Shown here: one piece after another, positions 2,547 through 61,613 of the stretch
How positions within the stretch are numbered: position 1 is the first letter of the stretch
Layout: each line of letters opens with the position of its first letter
Assembly (NCBI GenBank): GCA_028278525.1
Contig: JANQEE010000030.1
Coordinates: forward strand, 1-64,000
Direction: 5' to 3'
Length of the DNA stretch: 64,000 nt
Source: Minwuiaceae bacterium
GTDB taxonomy: Bacteria; Pseudomonadota; Alphaproteobacteria; Minwuiales; Minwuiaceae
Program-made: the position numbers and the translations under genes
Notes under the pieces: generated by a model
Told to the model about the DNA's origin: nothing
The model's input: the letters and a program-made list of their open reading frames with translations, nothing else
Databases searched by the model: none

Positions 2547-3079
2547 TGTCGCCGGTCCCCGGGCCGTCTGCCGAACGCCACGTCGTTCGGATCGTAGCGC
2601 TTGCGTTTGCGTTTCTTGAACGGCTCGTCCACGTGGTGCTTGTCGATAAAGTCCTGCACCCACGCGATCACCCCGTCCGGCATCGGCACCCCTTCGACCA
2701 CATCCTCGCCGCTATCCAGGTAATCCTGCGCTTCGTACGGCGATGCGGTCACCAGAAAAGGTTCGACATCCCGCTCGCCGTCGTCGGGTTCCGTCAGCAC
2801 GACATAGATAAGCGGCGGGTCGTTGGACAGGTTGGTCCGATACGCCTCGGTCTCGCGCCGATGCAGTTCCAGCGGAAGGGTCGCGGCATGGTACCGCGTC
2901 CAGCGTTGCCCGGCGCCGATCTCCTTCCAGTCGGAGACCGGCCCGGCCCCGGCGATCACGCTGACCGGCCGCCACGCATGGTCCTGCCACGGATGGTCGA
3001 TCTCGCGGCGTTCAACGACCACGCCAAGTGGCAAGCTGCGGCTTCTCTCGGTCAATCCTGTCCTCCCGTGCGGGACCAT
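2543..3079 (-). CDS. DUF3305 family protein
   Basis: 178-residue protein of the DUF3305 family, first gene of the minus-strand formate dehydrogenase operon. The family core is visible as LPLGVVVERREIDHPWQDHAWRP and later RYHAATLPLELHRRETEAY. The ATG at 3079 has AGAAGG just upstream; an earlier in-frame start would add an Arg-rich stretch and looks wrong. It stops inside the DUF3306 start (ATGA). It is divergent from the tungstate-binding gene, so the promoters of both arms should lie at 3080-3182. Confidence 0.8.
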   Translation of the reverse strand: MVPHGRTGLTERSRSLPLGVVVERREIDHPWQDHAWRPVSVIAGAGPVSDWKEIGAGQRWTRYHAATLPLELHRRETEAYRTNLSNDPPLIYVVLTEPDDGERDVEPFLVTASPYEAQDYLDSGEDVVEGVPMPDGVIAWVQDFIDKHHVDEPFKKRKRKRYDPNDVAFGRRPGDRRQ

Positions 3080-3182
3080 GCGCCTTCTTCGGCGATAGAC
3101 GAACTCAAACTGTATCACGAACTGGACAATCTTGACCGCCGGGCGGCATCATCCGAACAACCAAAAGGGGAAGGATCGGATC

Positions 3183-4013
3183 ATGAAGTTTCTGCGCAAT
3201 ACGGCAATCGCCGTCGCCGCGGTCGCCGCAATGCTGGGCGCCGCCCAGGCCGGAGACCGCCATATCGTCGTCGCCTCCACCACGTCGACAGAGAACTCCG
3301 GGTTGTTTTCGCACATTCTGCCGATGTTCGAGGCGGCGACCGGGATCGAGGCGCGCGTCGTCGCCGTCGGTACCGGCCAGGCGATCCGGATCGCGGAACG
3401 CGGTGACGCCGATGTGCTGTTCGTGCATGACGCGCCGTCCGAAAAACGCTTCGTCGACGCCGGCTTCGGCGTAGACCGTCGGGAGGTGATGTACAACGAC
3501 TTCGTGATCGTCGGTCCCGTCGCCGATCCGGCCGGTATCGGCGGCGCCTCTCTCGCTTCCGCCGCGTTCGGCATGATCGCCGAGGCGTCGGCGCCCTTCG
3601 TCTCCCGTGGCGACGACAGCGGCACCAACAAGGCGGAACTCCGGATCTGGCAGGCGGCCGGCGTCGACGCCCAGGCGGCCTCCGGCGGCTGGTACCGCGA
3701 AATCGGCGCCGGCATGGGCGCCGCGCTCAACACCGCCGCCGCGTCCGACGCCTACACGCTCAGCGACCGCGGCACCTGGCTTGCCTTCCGCAACAAGCGC
3801 AACCTGAAGATCCTGGTCGAGGGCGATCCCGGGCTGTTCAATCAGTACGGCGTCATCCTGGTCAATCCGGAGCGTCACGCCCACGTCAAGGCGGCGGACG
3901 GCAAGGCCTTCATCGACTGGATCACGTCTGAGGCCGGCCAGCAGGCGATCGCCGATTACAAGATCGGCGGCGACCAGTTGTTCTTCCCCAACGCCAAGGC
4001 GCCGAACTCCTAA
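3183..4013 (+). CDS. tupA: Tungstate ABC transporter substrate-binding protein
   Basis: Periplasmic binding protein (276 aa) with a cleavable signal peptide ending at AAQAG. The TupA signature is clear: VVASTTSTENSGLF, AVGTGQAIRIAERGDADVLFVH and MYNDFVIVGP, which form the oxyanion pocket in characterised tungstate-binding proteins. A GGAAGG site precedes the ATG. No permease or ATPase gene follows; the next gene is the 4Fe-4S protein. Placement in this locus suggests that the formate dehydrogenase uses tungsten, which is inference; molybdate binding cannot be excluded. Confidence 0.85.
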   Translation: MKFLRNTAIAVAAVAAMLGAAQAGDRHIVVASTTSTENSGLFSHILPMFEAATGIEARVVAVGTGQAIRIAERGDADVLFVHDAPSEKRFVDAGFGVDRREVMYNDFVIVGPVADPAGIGGASLASAAFGMIAEASAPFVSRGDDSGTNKAELRIWQAAGVDAQAASGGWYREIGAGMGAALNTAAASDAYTLSDRGTWLAFRNKRNLKILVEGDPGLFNQYGVILVNPERHAHVKAADGKAFIDWITSEAGQQAIADYKIGGDQLFFPNAKAPNS

Positions 4014-14263: not shown

Positions 14264-15655
14264 ATGCCGCGTGACTTCGACCCCGATGGCAAACGCCTGC
14301 CCATCAAGCTCGATTCCACGTCCAACGGCGAGTTCATGCCGGTGCCGTTGGATAAGACCAGCCGTCTGGCCAACCGCCTGGCGCAGGACCGGGCGGGCGA
14401 GAACGCGAAGCGCCTCGGCGTCGGCCGTCGCGCGTTCATGACGTCGGCCTGCGGCGCGGCCAGCACGCTGCTCGCCTTTAACGCGGCCAACGCCGTCGCC
14501 GGGCGTACCGGCGGTTATTTCGATCTCGACCAGGTCGCCGCCCTCGACCCGGAGATCGCCGAGAACCGCCTCGGTGGCCGAGAGTTCGTCTTCGACGTGC
14601 AGGGCCATTTCGTCGGCGAGCACGGGCTCGGCCGCACCGGCCTGGGCGGCTCGGACAAGTTCATCAAGGACATCTTCCTCGATTCCGACACGGACATGAT
14701 GGTGCTGTCCTTCATCCCGTCGCGCCGCGAAAAGGAGTTCCTGACGATCCAGGAGGCGGACGAGACCCGCCGCATCATCGACGAGATGGCGGGCACCAAA
14801 CGGCTTCTGATCCACGGCCGCGTCAATCCGAACCAGCCCGGCGACCTGGAAGACATGGACGAGTTGGCGGAGACCTGGGGCGTTTCGGCCTGGAAGTGCT
14901 ACACCCAGTGGGGCCCGGACGGCAAAGGATTCTTCCTGTATGACGAGGATACCGGCCTCCGCATGATCGAGAAGGCGCGCGCCCTCGGCGTCAGGAACAT
15001 CTGCATCCACAAGGGCCTGCCGTTCTCCCGGCGCTCCTACGAACACAGCCTGTCGACCGACATCGGCGTGGTCGCGAAGATGTTCCCGGACGTCAATTTC
15101 CTCGTCTACCACTCCGGCTTCATCACCGGCCAACCGGAAGGGCCGTACGATCCGGGCCGGGGCGAGGGCGTCGACGAACTGATTCGCTCGGTCGAGGAGA
15201 ACGGGGTGCCGCGCAACGCGAACGTCTACGCCGAGCTCGGCAGCACCTGGCGCTTCGCCATGCGCAATCCGGAGATGGCCGCCCACATCGTCGGCAAGCT
15301 GCTCAAGCATATCGGCGAAGAGAACGTGCTCTACGGCTCCGACTGCATCTGGTACGGCTCGCCGCAGGACCAGATCCAGGGTCTCCGCGCTTTCCAGATC
15401 TCCGAGGACCTGCGCGAGAAACACGGCTACCCGGAAATCACGCCAAAGCTCCGCGCCCAAATCTTCGGCCTCAACGCCGCCCGGGTCTACGGCATCGACG
15501 TCGACGAAGTTCTGAAACGCGCCCGCCACGACCCGGTCGAACGCCGCCGCGCCGAATACCGCGAGAACCCCAACCCCCACTTCCAAACCTTCGGCCCCAA
15601 GACCCGCCGCGAGTTCCTCGCTAATCTCAAGGCGAGGGGCGGGACCCCGGTCTGA
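14264..15655 (+). CDS. TAT-exported amidohydrolase family protein
   Basis: 463-residue metal-dependent TIM-barrel hydrolase of the amidohydrolase-2 family. A twin-arginine signal (RRAFM, residues 55-59, then a hydrophobic stretch ending in NAVAG) lies unusually far from the N-terminus. Barrel features include HKGLPF, LVYHSGF and a YGSDCIWYGSP Asp. The usual first D-x-H-x-H motif reads DVQGH (residues 111-115), so one His ligand is replaced by Gln. An AGGAG site precedes the ATG at 14264. The substrate is unknown. Confidence 0.82.
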   Translation: MPRDFDPDGKRLPIKLDSTSNGEFMPVPLDKTSRLANRLAQDRAGENAKRLGVGRRAFMTSACGAASTLLAFNAANAVAGRTGGYFDLDQVAALDPEIAENRLGGREFVFDVQGHFVGEHGLGRTGLGGSDKFIKDIFLDSDTDMMVLSFIPSRREKEFLTIQEADETRRIIDEMAGTKRLLIHGRVNPNQPGDLEDMDELAETWGVSAWKCYTQWGPDGKGFFLYDEDTGLRMIEKARALGVRNICIHKGLPFSRRSYEHSLSTDIGVVAKMFPDVNFLVYHSGFITGQPEGPYDPGRGEGVDELIRSVEENGVPRNANVYAELGSTWRFAMRNPEMAAHIVGKLLKHIGEENVLYGSDCIWYGSPQDQIQGLRAFQISEDLREKHGYPEITPKLRAQIFGLNAARVYGIDVDEVLKRARHDPVERRRAEYRENPNPHFQTFGPKTRREFLANLKARGGTPV

Positions 15656-54502: not shown

Positions 54503-54853
54503 ATGAAAGGACCGGCTGGACAGAGATCAACCGACGTCGCCGCCTTACTTGCGGCGGTCGCGCTCTCCCTCGCGATCTATCACTCCGCCCCGGCCGCAGA
54601 GGAGATCGACCCCGAAGCTTGTTTCTGCCTGCAACACGACAGCGGGCAAGCCCAACGGGGATGCCGCGCCGTAAAAGCCTCGGCGGACGAAGTAACGATT
54701 GCAGACTGCAAAGACCCGGATTCAGGACAACTGTTCCAAACGGAGATCCGCGCGCCATGGACGGTGATCCTCGACGGCAATCCGGGGTGCGAGCTTTGCC
54801 GCCCCCAGAGCCGTGGACCGGACGACGTCATTCGCGGAGAGAATGATGACTGA
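54503..54853 (+). CDS. Small secreted Cys-rich protein of the TPR-CHAT cluster
   Basis: 116-residue protein with a signal peptide or N-terminal anchor (VAALLAAVALSLAIYHSAPAA). The mature part has six Cys (C40, C42, C54, C69, C96, C99), which in the periplasm would form three disulfides or bind metal through the C-x-C and C-x-x-C pairs. It overlaps the next gene by eight bases. No family recognised. It is the first gene of a three-gene unit ending in a TPR-CHAT protease. Confidence 0.65.
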   Translation: MKGPAGQRSTDVAALLAAVALSLAIYHSAPAAEEIDPEACFCLQHDSGQAQRGCRAVKASADEVTIADCKDPDSGQLFQTEIRAPWTVILDGNPGCELCRPQSRGPDDVIRGENDD

Positions 54854-55514
54854 GTCGAGCCCGCCGCCGGCCGGCCCGGGCGCAGCATCGGGACCGTCGC
54901 TCGGAGATGTGATTTCGTGCGTGGCGCTTGTGGTTGGTCTGATCACGGCATGGCTCTACGTCGCCGGTTGGACCCACGCCTACTACTACTTCGATCGCTT
55001 CCGGATCCCCATGTTGATGCTCGACCTGCCACGCGAACATCTCTTTGTGTATGGAGGCTTGACGGTTTGGAAGAACTCGCTTGCGGCCGTATTGATCACC
55101 GCCGTCGCAATCGCCCTGGTTTGGCTGTCGGTAAAATTTCGCAGGGTGCTTGGGCGGGCCGTTCTGGCCGGCGTGGCGGTTTTCGGGATCGTCGCTCTGT
55201 TCGGCCTGGCCAGGCTGGCGGGCATCGAAACCGCAAGAAACGAGTTTGTCGAGCAGCGCCTGTCGGACTATAGGGCCTATCCGCGTGTCGAGCTGACTCT
55301 GACGGATGCGCTGACCCAGGAAAGCCCACCGGCCGGCGATGCTTCGAAGGTTGCGCGTTCCGGCTGCGCCCGGTTGCTGCTTTTCAGTGATGACCGAGTT
55401 TTTTTCATCCGACCGATCAAAGACGCCCCAGCGGCGGAGTTGCACGCATTTGTACTTCCTTGGTCCGCAGTGAAGGACATGCGGATCAGGCACGAATACT
55501 GGAGCTGCGAGTGA
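54846..55514 (+). CDS. Three-span membrane protein of the TPR-CHAT cluster
   Basis: 222-residue protein with three predicted spans (about residues 21-42, 77-95 and 103-122) and a C-terminal soluble domain of ~100 residues with short strands (RLLLFSDDRVFFIRP, HAFVLPWSAVKDMRI). The first loop carries AYYYFDRFRIPMLMLDLPRE, a Tyr/Phe-rich motif I recall from uncharacterised membrane proteins. The ATG at 54846 has GGAG six bases upstream. It is 19 bases before the CHAT gene. Role unknown. Confidence 0.7.
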   Translation: MTESSPPPAGPGAASGPSLGDVISCVALVVGLITAWLYVAGWTHAYYYFDRFRIPMLMLDLPREHLFVYGGLTVWKNSLAAVLITAVAIALVWLSVKFRRVLGRAVLAGVAVFGIVALFGLARLAGIETARNEFVEQRLSDYRAYPRVELTLTDALTQESPPAGDASKVARSGCARLLLFSDDRVFFIRPIKDAPAAELHAFVLPWSAVKDMRIRHEYWSCE

Positions 55515-55533
55515 TTTATTGAGGAGTTGGCTG

Positions 55534-58401
55534 ATGTGCAGGAAGAGCTTTCGATTTCTTGCCTTGACTGTCGCCGTCACCGCTACGCTTGTTTGCGCCG
55601 ACGAGTTTAAAGCCCGCGCTCAAAGTGAGGATCCCCTCTCGGGCGACCTCATCATTCGAGCGCTACGGCAAATGGAAGCCTTGGCTCCGAACGCCGACGA
55701 ATACTGGTCCTTGCTTATGGCCAGCGTCGATGGTTCGATCAACAAGGGCAACTACGAAAAGGGCATCATTGTCGCGCAAGAGGGGCGCCGCTACGCCGAG
55801 CAGAACTTTGCGCCGAACGATCGCAGGGCGAACGCGATCCTGAACAGGCTTGCTCTGCTCTACAAACACACCAACCGCTATGCCGACAGCGCGCTTCTCT
55901 ATACCGAGGCCTATCAGGGTTCTATGACCGCGTTTGGCGAGGCCCACCCGGATACGCTCGCAAACCTGATGGGCATTGGCAGCGTGCGCGCACTAGAGGG
56001 ATTCCAAGCCGAGGCGGAAGACCTCCTGGCCAAGGCAGTGAGGATCGGTCGCGAGCGGCTGGGTGAAGAGCACGAAATGACGCTTACCAGCCTTAACCAG
56101 CTGGGGTGGTTCTACGAGGCGCAGGGCCGCTACGGCGAGGCGGAGCCCTTGTTCGTAAAGGCCTACGAAGTCCGCATAAGGGTGCTAGGCAAGACCCATG
56201 AACACACGCTCATAAGTCTCAACAACCTGGCGGCGCTCTATCATTCCCAAAAACGTTACGACAAGGCCGAGCCGTTGTACCGGAAAGCGCTGGAGCTTCG
56301 CCGCGACACGCTCGGAGCAGGCCACTATGACACGCTGCTCAGTCATTTGAACCTCGCGACGCTCTATTTGCATCAGCAACGATACGCGGATGCCGAGGCG
56401 CTTTCTTCGGAGGCCCTCATCCAAGCGGTTCAGAATCTGGGCGCCGATCATCCGCTGACTCTGGCCGTAGCCAACGGTCTCGCCGGAGCCTTGGATCACC
56501 AAGGCCGATACCAGGAAGCCGAGGAGCTCTTCCGCCGTGTCATGACGGCCAAACTGCGGTTCCTTGGTGAGAGGCACCCATCGACGCTGGTCGCGCTCAA
56601 CAACGTCGCCGCGCACCTTCATCAACAAGGTCGCCACGAGGAAGCCAAGGCGCTCTACGAACAAGCGGAAGTCGGGCTGCTCGAGCAACTCGGGCCGCTG
56701 CATCCTGACACACTGATTACCCAGCTCAGCATGGCGGGCAATGAGGTTGGCCTGCAGCAGCCGGAGGCCGCCGCCAAGCGATTGTTAGACATGGAAAAGC
56801 ATTTGCTGACCTGGCTGGGGACGGAACTCCACACGACGGCGAGCGCCGCGGCGCGGCGCGGCCTCGTGTTCTCGCAGGCAAACTACCAGTTCTTCGCAAT
56901 CTCGCTCGCGCTACGTTATCCGGACTTCGAACCGGCACAAGAACTCGCGGCCCTGGCGGCGCTTCGCTTCAAGGGTGTGCAGGCCGAAGAAGAGGCGCTG
57001 CTCGCTCGACTGGCGCGGCGCGGCAGGGAGCCGGAGGCGGCGAAGTTGGCTGCCGAGATTGCGGCAAATCGCAGCCGCCTTTCCCGTGCGTTCCATGAGG
57101 GCGGCGAGGACATCGACAGTCTCAAGGATGTCCTCGAAGCCAAGGAGCTTGCGCTCGCCAAGGTTAGCCGCCGCTACAATCGATCCTTGCAGGTGCGGTC
57201 GGCAAGCCTCGAGGAACTGCGGCAATCTCTGGCCGACGATACGGTGCTCGTTGAGTTCCGTCGCTATGAACCTTTCGAATTCGAGCGGCTTGAGTCCGGC
57301 CTGCCCAGATGGGCGGCGATTGTCATTGCGCGGTCCGATGTGCTGAAGGTTGTCGACCTGGGTCTTGTCGGACCGACCCTGCCGCTCATCCGGTCGCTGT
57401 TGGGCAGCGACGACACCACTGCGGCCCAGCCGCTCTATGACCGATTGGTCGCTCCAATCGCGCGGTGGATCGTCAACCGCGAGACGGTCATCCTCGCGCC
57501 TGATGGCGACTTGCACCTTGTACCTTTCCACCGTCTGGCCGACCCGGACGGCCGCCTTTGGGCCGAGCGCGATCAGCTGGTGCGGGTAGTACAGACCGGC
57601 CGCGATTTGATCCGACCATCCTCGAGCGAGGGCGGTGGCGGTTTGCTTGCCTTGGGCGGCGTCGACTTCACTGCTGGTGAGAAACCTGCGCCCGTCGGTC
57701 AAGGTCACGACGAGTCCGATCCGTTTCTTTCGCGCGGTCAGGCCGAGGCGCTGCGTGCTAGCACCGGCGAGATCTTTCGTGGCGGCTTCAAGGCGCTTAA
57801 GGAAAGCAAGGAAGAGGTTGAATCGATTTGGCGCCGCTTCCGGATCATCCACCGGAACGAGCCGGCCGTTATGTGGACGGAGAGAAAGGCAAGCGAGGCG
57901 CGACTGAAAGCCCTAGAAAGTCCACCACGGGTTCTACACCTCGCGACGCACGGCTTCTACCGACCGCGCGTGCGTCCGACAGAACGGCCAATGCTGCTTT
58001 CCGGCGTCGCGCTGGCCGGCGCCAACCAGGCGCTGAAAGGCGACGTCGAGGACGGCGTCCTCTACGCCCTTGAGGCGCAGGGTCTCAATCTCGAGGGGAC
58101 GGAACTGGTCGTTCTCTCCGCCTGCAAGACTGCTCAGGGCGAAATCGACCATAGCGAAGGCGTCTACGGGCTGGTCCGTGCGTTTCGGACCGCAGGCGCG
58201 CGAAACGTTCTGGTCAGCCTGCGTCCGGTCGGTGACGCTTCCGCCCGCAGATTCATGGATCGATTCTATCGTCACTGGCTTGAAGAAACGCCGGACGATC
58301 TGACTCGCGCCCTGCGCGAGACGCAGCGCGACTATCTGGATGAGGGCAACAGGAAAGACTGGGTTCCCTTCGTCCTCATCGGGACGGGAACCTCAAGCTA
58401 G
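55534..58401 (+). CDS. Exported TPR-CHAT domain protease
   Basis: 955-residue protein. A signal peptide (MCRKSFRFLALTVAVTATLVCA) predicts export. Residues ~80-420 form about seven kinesin-light-chain-type TPR units of 42 residues, each with L-G-x-x-H-x-x-T-L. The C-terminal ~300 residues are a CHAT caspase-like peptidase with the His-Cys dyad: H806 in HLATHGFYRP and C864 in VLSACKTAQG, then GVYGLVRAFRTAGARNVLVSL. TPRs would recognise a partner that triggers or receives cleavage. GAGGAG precedes the ATG. Third gene of a unit with a Cys-rich secreted protein and a membrane protein. Confidence 0.92.
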   Translation: MCRKSFRFLALTVAVTATLVCADEFKARAQSEDPLSGDLIIRALRQMEALAPNADEYWSLLMASVDGSINKGNYEKGIIVAQEGRRYAEQNFAPNDRRANAILNRLALLYKHTNRYADSALLYTEAYQGSMTAFGEAHPDTLANLMGIGSVRALEGFQAEAEDLLAKAVRIGRERLGEEHEMTLTSLNQLGWFYEAQGRYGEAEPLFVKAYEVRIRVLGKTHEHTLISLNNLAALYHSQKRYDKAEPLYRKALELRRDTLGAGHYDTLLSHLNLATLYLHQQRYADAEALSSEALIQAVQNLGADHPLTLAVANGLAGALDHQGRYQEAEELFRRVMTAKLRFLGERHPSTLVALNNVAAHLHQQGRHEEAKALYEQAEVGLLEQLGPLHPDTLITQLSMAGNEVGLQQPEAAAKRLLDMEKHLLTWLGTELHTTASAAARRGLVFSQANYQFFAISLALRYPDFEPAQELAALAALRFKGVQAEEEALLARLARRGREPEAAKLAAEIAANRSRLSRAFHEGGEDIDSLKDVLEAKELALAKVSRRYNRSLQVRSASLEELRQSLADDTVLVEFRRYEPFEFERLESGLPRWAAIVIARSDVLKVVDLGLVGPTLPLIRSLLGSDDTTAAQPLYDRLVAPIARWIVNRETVILAPDGDLHLVPFHRLADPDGRLWAERDQLVRVVQTGRDLIRPSSSEGGGGLLALGGVDFTAGEKPAPVGQGHDESDPFLSRGQAEALRASTGEIFRGGFKALKESKEEVESIWRRFRIIHRNEPAVMWTERKASEARLKALESPPRVLHLATHGFYRPRVRPTERPMLLSGVALAGANQALKGDVEDGVLYALEAQGLNLEGTELVVLSACKTAQGEIDHSEGVYGLVRAFRTAGARNVLVSLRPVGDASARRFMDRFYRHWLEETPDDLTRALRETQRDYLDEGNRKDWVPFVLIGTGTSS

Positions 58402-59409: not shown

Positions 59410-60777
59410 CTAAACGCCCGCCCACCCGAATGAATGGAACACGACGCCGGCGGCCGCCGCCCCGCCCAGTACGGTCGTCATGCCAAGCTTAAGACGGAAC
59501 ACCGCCACCAGCGCACCGGCAACCAGCAGTGCGGCGGCGAGGTCCAGGCTTGACCAGACGGGCACGTCGAGCGTCGCGCCGAAGCCCTGGACAATCCGAA
59601 GCTCGCCGAACAGTACGTGCAGGCCGAACCAGATCGCCAGGTTCAAAATCACGCCGACCACGGCCGCGGTAATCGCGGCGAGCGCCGCGGCGATGCGGCG
59701 GTTCTCGCGCAGGCGTTCCACGTAGGGCGCGCCGAGGAAGATCCACAGGAAACAAGGCGTAAACGTCACCCAGGTGGTCAGCAGCCCGGCCAGCGTGCCG
59801 GCCGCGAGCGGCGGCAGGCCGCCCGCGTCGCGGAAGCCGGCCAGGAAACCGACGAACTGCGTCACCATGATCAGCGGCCCGGGCGTCGTCTCGGCCATGC
59901 CGAGCCCGTCCAGCATCTCGCCCGGCGCCAGCCAGCCGTAAGCGTCGACCGCCTGCTGCGCCACATAGGCCAGCACCGCATAGGCGCCGCCGAAGGTCAC
60001 CACCGCCATCTGCGAGAAGAACAGCGCCACCTGCGTGAACACGTTCTCGCCGCCGAGCAGCCCGAACAGCGCCACCACCGGCCCGAGCCAGAGCGTCAGC
60101 AGCACGGCCCCCACCGCGAGCGACCGCGCCCGGTTCGGCCGGGCGTGGTCCGGCGTCGCTTCGCCCAGCACCGTCTCGGCATCGGCAATCCCGCCGCCCG
60201 CCGCGCCATGCCCGTTGCGGGCCCTAACGCCCGGCAGGCCCGCGAACCCGGCCAGGCCGGCCAGAACGATAATCAGCGGAAACGGCAGGTCGAACACGAA
60301 GATGCCGACGAAGGAGAGGGCGGCGAGCCCGACCATCGTACCGGTTCCGAGCGCCCGCCCGCCGATCCGGATCACCGCCTGCAACACGATCGCCAGCACC
60401 GCGGCCTTCAGCCCGAAGAACAGCCCCTCGACCACGCCGACGTCGCCGACCAGCACATAGACCCAGCTTAAGCCCATGATCGCGATCAGCCCGGGCAGCA
60501 CGAACAGCACGCCCGCGACGATGCCGCCCGCCGTCCGGTGCATCAGCCAGCCGATATAGACGGCGAGCTGCTGCGCCTCGGGCCCAGGCAGCAGCATGCA
60601 GAAGTTGAGCGCATGCAGGAACCGCGCCTCGCCGAGCCACCGTTTCTCCTCGACGATGATGCGGTGCATCACCGCGATCTGCCCGGCCGGCCCGCCGAAA
60701 CTTAAGAGCGCAATCCGCGCCCAGACGACGACCGCCTCGGCGAAGCTCGGGTAAGACGGCCGTTCCCCGTCGCTCAT
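59410..60777 (-). CDS. chrA: Chromate transporter
   Basis: 455-residue CHR-superfamily permease exporting chromate. Two homologous halves: the first with LLSFGGPAGQIAVMHRIIVEEKRWL and LLPGPEAQQLAVYIGWL, the second with VVTFGGAYAVLAYVAQQAV and TTPGPLIMVTQFVGFLAG. About twelve predicted spans and full length for the two-domain type. The ATG at 60777 overlaps the preceding stop (ATGA), so it is coupled to the rhodanese-ChrB gene. Confidence 0.95.
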   Translation of the reverse strand: MSDGERPSYPSFAEAVVVWARIALLSFGGPAGQIAVMHRIIVEEKRWLGEARFLHALNFCMLLPGPEAQQLAVYIGWLMHRTAGGIVAGVLFVLPGLIAIMGLSWVYVLVGDVGVVEGLFFGLKAAVLAIVLQAVIRIGGRALGTGTMVGLAALSFVGIFVFDLPFPLIIVLAGLAGFAGLPGVRARNGHGAAGGGIADAETVLGEATPDHARPNRARSLAVGAVLLTLWLGPVVALFGLLGGENVFTQVALFFSQMAVVTFGGAYAVLAYVAQQAVDAYGWLAPGEMLDGLGMAETTPGPLIMVTQFVGFLAGFRDAGGLPPLAAGTLAGLLTTWVTFTPCFLWIFLGAPYVERLRENRRIAAALAAITAAVVGVILNLAIWFGLHVLFGELRIVQGFGATLDVPVWSSLDLAAALLVAGALVAVFRLKLGMTTVLGGAAAAGVVFHSFGWAGV

Positions 60778-61613
60778 GCCCGGACTTCCGCGCCGGCGGC
60801 GGGCCAGTTGTGCGTCTCGTCGGCGGCGTCGCGGCACCATCGGTAGAACGCGTCGTAGATGCCCATGCCCGCCTCCAGTTGGTCCAGGTCGTTCTTATAC
60901 ATGACCGACAGGCCGAGCGAGGCGGCAAGCAGGCCGGCCGCTTCGGCCGCGAGGTCTAGCCGCGCGGTATCGGCGCCGCGCACGATCTCGGCCAGCCGCA
61001 TCAGCGGCGGCGTTTGCAGGCCGAATTCCGCCAGCATGGTGTCGAAGCTGCACCGATCGCCGCGGTGGCTCCAGAACGCGCCTTCGATGTCGAACGCCGT
61101 GGCGCCGAGTTTGTCGGCTACGGCCGCGACCTCGCTCTCGGCCACGAACAGGAACACCGCCGAGGGGTCGACGAACCGTCGGATCAGCCAGGGGCAGGCG
61201 ATGCGGTCGATCTTCGGCCGCTCCCGCGTGACCCAGACCGTCCGGCCTTGGCCGTCGCGCGGCGGCAGTGCCCGGGCCGGCACCGTCGGCAGGCCCGCGT
61301 CGTTCCAGGCCTCGATGCCGCCGACAAGGTGCTGCGCCCGCGCACCCGCGTGGCGCATCCAGGCCGCGGCGCCGGCGCTGAGTTTCAGGCCTTTCTGGCA
61401 GATCACGATGGCGGCCGCCCCGGCGAACCCGTCGGCCCAGTCGGCAACCTCGAACGCCGACCGGCGGATCGAACCGGGAATGAAGCGCGGGTCAGCATCG
61501 AAATCCTCATCGATACGCACATCGATCAGCACCGGACAATCCGGCGTGCCGATCAGGCGGGACAAAGTTTCAAGGGAAACGGAGGAAGAGAAAGCAGAAT
61601 GATATGACAGCAT
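60774..61613 (-). CDS. Rhodanese-ChrB fusion, chromate resistance protein
   Basis: 279-residue protein. Residues 1-~110 are rhodanese-like (VLIDVRIDEDFDADPRFIPGSIRR, VICQKGLKLSAGAAAWMRHAG) with Cys in the active loop. Residues ~120-279 are the chromate-resistance ChrB domain: VWVTRERPKIDRIACPWLIRRFVDP, FDIEGAFWSHRGDRCSFDTML. It should sense or assist chromate handling and is coupled to chrA. GAAGGA lies upstream of the ATG. Confidence 0.9.
   Translation of the reverse strand: MLSYHSAFSSSVSLETLSRLIGTPDCPVLIDVRIDEDFDADPRFIPGSIRRSAFEVADWADGFAGAAAIVICQKGLKLSAGAAAWMRHAGARAQHLVGGIEAWNDAGLPTVPARALPPRDGQGRTVWVTRERPKIDRIACPWLIRRFVDPSAVFLFVAESEVAAVADKLGATAFDIEGAFWSHRGDRCSFDTMLAEFGLQTPPLMRLAEIVRGADTARLDLAAEAAGLLAASLGLSVMYKNDLDQLEAGMGIYDAFYRWCRDAADETHNWPAAGAEVRA

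Follow-up and report, generated by a model that had tools for sequence, protein, structure and literature searches.

Within the window, the whole stretch of 64,000 nucleotides that was analyzed, three tightly packed genes on the forward strand (54503–58401) encode a six-cysteine secreted protein, a three-span membrane protein and a TPR-CHAT protein. The reading we favor, tentatively, is that the trio would constitute one envelope proteolysis unit, in which a portable partner module is paired with an exported CHAT protease. The packing, the domains, the catalytic dyad, the homology and the recurrence of the two partner families were read directly from the sequences.

The first gene (P0001, 54503–54853, + strand) encodes 116 aa with an N-terminal signal peptide for which an APA/AEE-type site is likely. 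The second (P0002, 54846–55514, +) encodes 222 aa starting at ATG 54846 (or 54843), and the third (P0003, 55534–58401, +) encodes 955 aa. P0001 and P0002 overlap by 8 bases, and P0003 follows after a gap of 19 bases holding a ribosome-binding-like GAGGAG (55521–55526, +, read from the sequence). This overlap and gap with its ribosome site suggest a single transcript. The coordinates, lengths and spacing given in the original prediction were exact, and its treatment of the three genes as a unit is backed by their packing and by their similar composition. The annotated frame was the top of six in codon usage for each gene. The GC3 of the three genes was 0.67–0.72, whereas most of the window's long genes have about 0.85–0.9; this suggests a common, perhaps foreign, origin.

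GC3 below that of the host in all three genes is also what would be expected if the CHAT gene had come together with the six-Cys/three-span pair on one acquired segment, with no joint function. In that case the pair would have its own envelope role, and protease neighbors would reflect regions rich in surface genes. This is a quite possible alternative, against which the 8-base overlap and the 19-base gap with its ribosome site speak by suggesting one transcript.

Seven flanking genes scanned with Pfam were DSBA-like, methyltransferase, tautomerase, creatininase, chromate transporter, ChrB and one without a match. The ChrB-type protein that adjoins the chromate transporter carries a rhodanese domain (59410–61613 for the two together). 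ARAGORN called a tRNA at 14445–14539 whose anticodon, tta, was taken as that of a stop-codon tRNA; the call is probably spurious.

Pfam searches with the 955-aa protein returned TPR_12 (E=1.2e-59) and CHAT (PF12770; 195.9 bits against a curated cut-off of 24, E=1.3e-57). P0003 is laid out as a signal peptide (about residues 1–30), TPRs (about 70 to 420) and the CHAT domain (630–950). The predicted catalytic dyad is intact, with both residues present as claimed (H806 within ATHG and C864 within SACKT), and the H, G and C columns were invariant in an alignment of six CHATs (P0003 and five relatives). By its domain and dyad P0003 is a CHAT protein, with a divergent CHAT domain (24–27% identity to the five aligned relatives). 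Its branch was very long in a quick, unfinished CHAT tree, which was not used for placing the protein. P0003 is encoded by the only CHAT gene in the host genome. Two Peptidase C14 (caspase) domains were observed elsewhere in that genome (G000:C37:34505-35203 and G000:C28:24808-25341). Pattern scans of the genome collection found no relatives of P0003 or P0002, and AlphaFold models built without an alignment were poor for both (pLDDT 39.5 for P0003 and 57.3 for P0002).

P0003 starts at ATG 55534 with the signal peptide MCRKSFRFLALTVAVTATLVCADEFKARAQ. The GAGGAG at 55521–55526 lies 7 bases upstream of this ATG and supports it, so the signal peptide is independent of a doubtful start. The predicted signal peptide behind a well-placed start likewise backs the placing of the protease in the envelope.

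Export was scored across CHAT proteins of the window's class, which is probably Alphaproteobacteria. CHAT was present in 80 of 385 sampled genomes; 100 loci were fetched around the matches, and 100 complete CHAT ORFs were scored, the window's own included. An export signal was found in 71 of the 100 CHAT ORFs vs 127 of 742 background long ORFs; these figures are approximate, since they come from a crude signal-peptide rule, applied at every start, and not from SignalP. Many of the export-positive ORFs were lipoprotein-like, and the four CHAT ORFs taken from the window's family (L107–L110) all passed the rule. The contrast is large, so the export of P0003 is not unusual; in this class most TPR-CHAT proteins appear to be exported, and the novelty originally seen in export, by contrast with cytoplasmic TPR-CHAT proteins, is not supported. 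At four loci (L075, L091, L097 and L100) class CHAT genes were seen near TPS exoprotein and ShlB-like genes. Neither exported TPR-CHAT proteins as a group nor this three-gene arrangement was found described in the open-licence PMC literature.

A defense-related or stress-triggered proteolytic switch in the manner of Craspase had also been proposed, and we regard it as highly improbable. It would account for the TPR and CHAT architecture with its intact dyad, and CHAT domains are found in conflict systems (PMC10907252). It is opposed by the predicted export of P0003 and by the flanks, which carry tautomerase, methyltransferase, creatininase and chromate genes. Among the PADLOC defense models the only matches were a generic TPR model and BovA, the latter below threshold (E=0.05), and PDB searches with P0003 and with the CHAT profile matched no Craspase chain. 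The defense models, the PDB searches and the flanking genes thus gave no positive evidence for such a role. No Cas protein was found among the seven neighboring genes in the Pfam scan; judged by sequence match, signal peptide and scanned neighbors, P0003 is not a Craspase.

The six-Cys protein has cysteines at C40, C42, C54, C69, C96 and C99 behind a signal-peptide-like start, in agreement with its description as a secreted six-Cys protein. P0001 had no Pfam or NCBIfam match, and no convincing relative of it was found in the window's class. All six cysteines are kept in two homologues, P0004 (G549:C381) and P0009 (G416:C127). P0004 has 31% identity to P0001, is secreted and is encoded directly upstream of a three-span gene; P0009 carries its domain twice, the second copy being partial. 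With leave-one-out profiles, P0001, P0004 and P0009 each scored above 2000 of 2000 shuffles. A Cys-rich protein of G459 (P0010) was rejected as a homologue by the same profiles and shuffles. By these profiles the six-Cys protein is a real, undescribed family.

P0002 has hydrophobic spans at residues 22–40, 78–96 and 101–119, followed by a soluble tail. Spans 2 and 3 are joined by a loop of net positive charge in 5 of 5 complete members of the three-span family, and the N-terminus is likewise net positive in 4 of 5, that of P0002 being without K or R. This charge distribution places the tail in the periplasm, and P0002 is predicted to be N-in with a periplasmic C-terminal tail; the membrane partner with a soluble tail was thus recovered, on the predicted side. 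Two tail cysteines, C174 and C221, are common to P0002, P0005 and P0006, the three closest members, and would fit a disulfide-rich envelope complex with P0001.

A phylum-wide search found as relatives of P0002 the proteins P0006 at G416:C27 (7.8e-14) and P0005 at G549:C381 (2.4e-9). They lie in another class, which is probably Magnetococcia; a profile search of 48 genomes of that class turned up three more loci, G549:C108, G459:C35 and, with a fragment at the contig end, G416:C127. The further three-span relatives found by profile (P0007, P0008 and P0011) each scored above 2000 of 2000 shuffles in leave-one-out tests. Closer to the window, no relatives of P0002 were found in 60 nearby genomes and no convincing ones in the 385 class genomes; weak class-wide matches were dropped as short or containing stop codons, and a G393 match (E=9.7e-4) was dropped when a wider profile gave it no support. 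A six-sequence profile run over 210 class genomes matched the window only, and no second three-span relative was found within the host genome. Viral contigs yielded no relatives, and plasmids none beyond one insignificant match. In searches that included Pfam and NCBIfam, no library family matched the three-span protein. By its profile matches it is a real, undescribed family, and the earlier view that neither partner matches a known family is upheld.

The six-Cys/three-span order, present in the window, is seen again at G549:C381 and G416:C127, which makes three places in all. The pair is patchy, being found only in its own genome among the 385 class genomes and in 3 of 48 genomes of the other class, a distribution that is in keeping with acquisition of the pair and the CHAT gene on one segment. 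At G416:C127 the pair comes last, after a TPS exoprotein and, before that, a protein that joins a Peptidase C13 domain (E=5.8e-9) to RCC1 repeats. The large RCC1/Peptidase C13 protein (L186, 3062–7030) also matches carboxypeptidase-regulatory and Ig-like domains. At G459:C35 a ShlB-like transporter, a TPS exoprotein and an unrelated Cys-rich protein precede the three-span protein. The C-terminus of that exoprotein (L185, 4503–9284) contains SGHG (1439) and SSCHAG (1487); Pfam and PDB searches recognized no protease fold in this HG/C domain, the assignment being a motif reading alone. The two motifs resemble caspase-fold active sites. At G549:C108 the three-span protein is followed by a matrixin-like metalloprotease. 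The ORFs at this locus (L184) comprise one with radical-SAM/SPASM-type Cys motifs upstream of the three-span relative (551–1873) and the matrixin-like one downstream (2659–3933).

A known or possible secreted protease therefore lies near 3 of the 5 three-span relatives elsewhere, and none was found beside those at G549:C381 and G416:C27. These five loci are suggestive of a link between the partners and secreted proteases. The two relatives without an adjoining protease, and the absence of the pair from every other CHAT locus fetched, fit joint acquisition with no shared function; the proteases of different families near the three other relatives argue against it.

The association is not specific to CHAT. 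A close upstream ORF was present at 86 of the 100 CHAT ORFs, and it was a small 2–4-span protein in two besides the window. All ORFs of the fetched CHAT loci were scanned with profiles of both partners, and neither partner turned up outside the window's locus; no CHAT was found at the other partner loci, so the exact trio has been seen once. Co-occurrence of the partners with CHAT genes elsewhere, set beforehand as the test of the original prediction, was not seen at the loci fetched, and by that test a specific partnership with CHAT is not supported.

For the trio as one envelope unit, we infer that the genes are co-transcribed, where in the cell the proteins lie and with what topology, that the protease is active and, from few loci, that the parts are functionally coupled. 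The CHAT protein would be exported, apparently like most CHATs of its class, and would act in the periplasm or on the cell surface, as a His/Cys protease at the outer face of the inner membrane, with its TPR arm binding a protein partner. The portable module would consist of two parts: a six-Cys protein that is secreted and disulfide-bonded, and an inner-membrane protein with three spans and a Cys-containing periplasmic tail. Most likely the module would dock, restrain or sense for the protease at the membrane; the three-span tail or the six-Cys protein could be a bound inhibitor or a substrate. In other bacteria the module would be paired with different secreted proteases. A bolder extension, which we consider rather unlikely, is that an undescribed portable module both anchors and controls secreted proteases, exported caspase-fold ones among them, as an extracytoplasmic protease switch in which lineages swap the protease itself: CHAT in this genome, and Peptidase C13 or HG/C-type TPS exoproteins in others. 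If confirmed, the conserved two-gene membrane partner would help to show how such proteases are both held and triggered outside the cytoplasm, and two new protein families would be named.

A substrate role of the partners is possible and has a precedent in Csx30 and Craspase, CHAT substrates often being encoded nearby (PMC9729208). It is improbable that P0003 is a stand-alone exported TPR-CHAT protein for which the two upstream genes provide specific local substrates, as Csx30 does for Craspase, and no anchor or regulator. Both partners are predicted to lie in the compartment of the CHAT protein, as this would require; the pair is found elsewhere without CHAT, and hence has a role independent of this protease.

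Among known systems, the exported TPR-CHAT (PF12770) proteins of the class have the same domain order, export signal and His/Cys dyad as P0003, which differs in its divergent CHAT domain and in six-Cys/three-span neighbors that are unique among the fetched loci. TPS loci with CHAT or caspase-fold proteins are alike in their exported proteases, TPS or ShlB-like genes lying beside some class CHATs and two three-span relatives. A search for the TPS exoprotein domain (PF05860) found none in the host genome, nor in any control genome; no ShlB/FhaC transporter was found among the neighboring genes scanned. In Craspase (Csx29, type III-E CRISPR) a TPR arm is joined to a CHAT domain with a His-Cys dyad (PMC9729208). 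P0003 shares the arm, the domain and the dyad. The TPR-CHAT protein of Craspase is cytoplasmic, whereas P0003 carries a predicted signal peptide behind a well-placed start.
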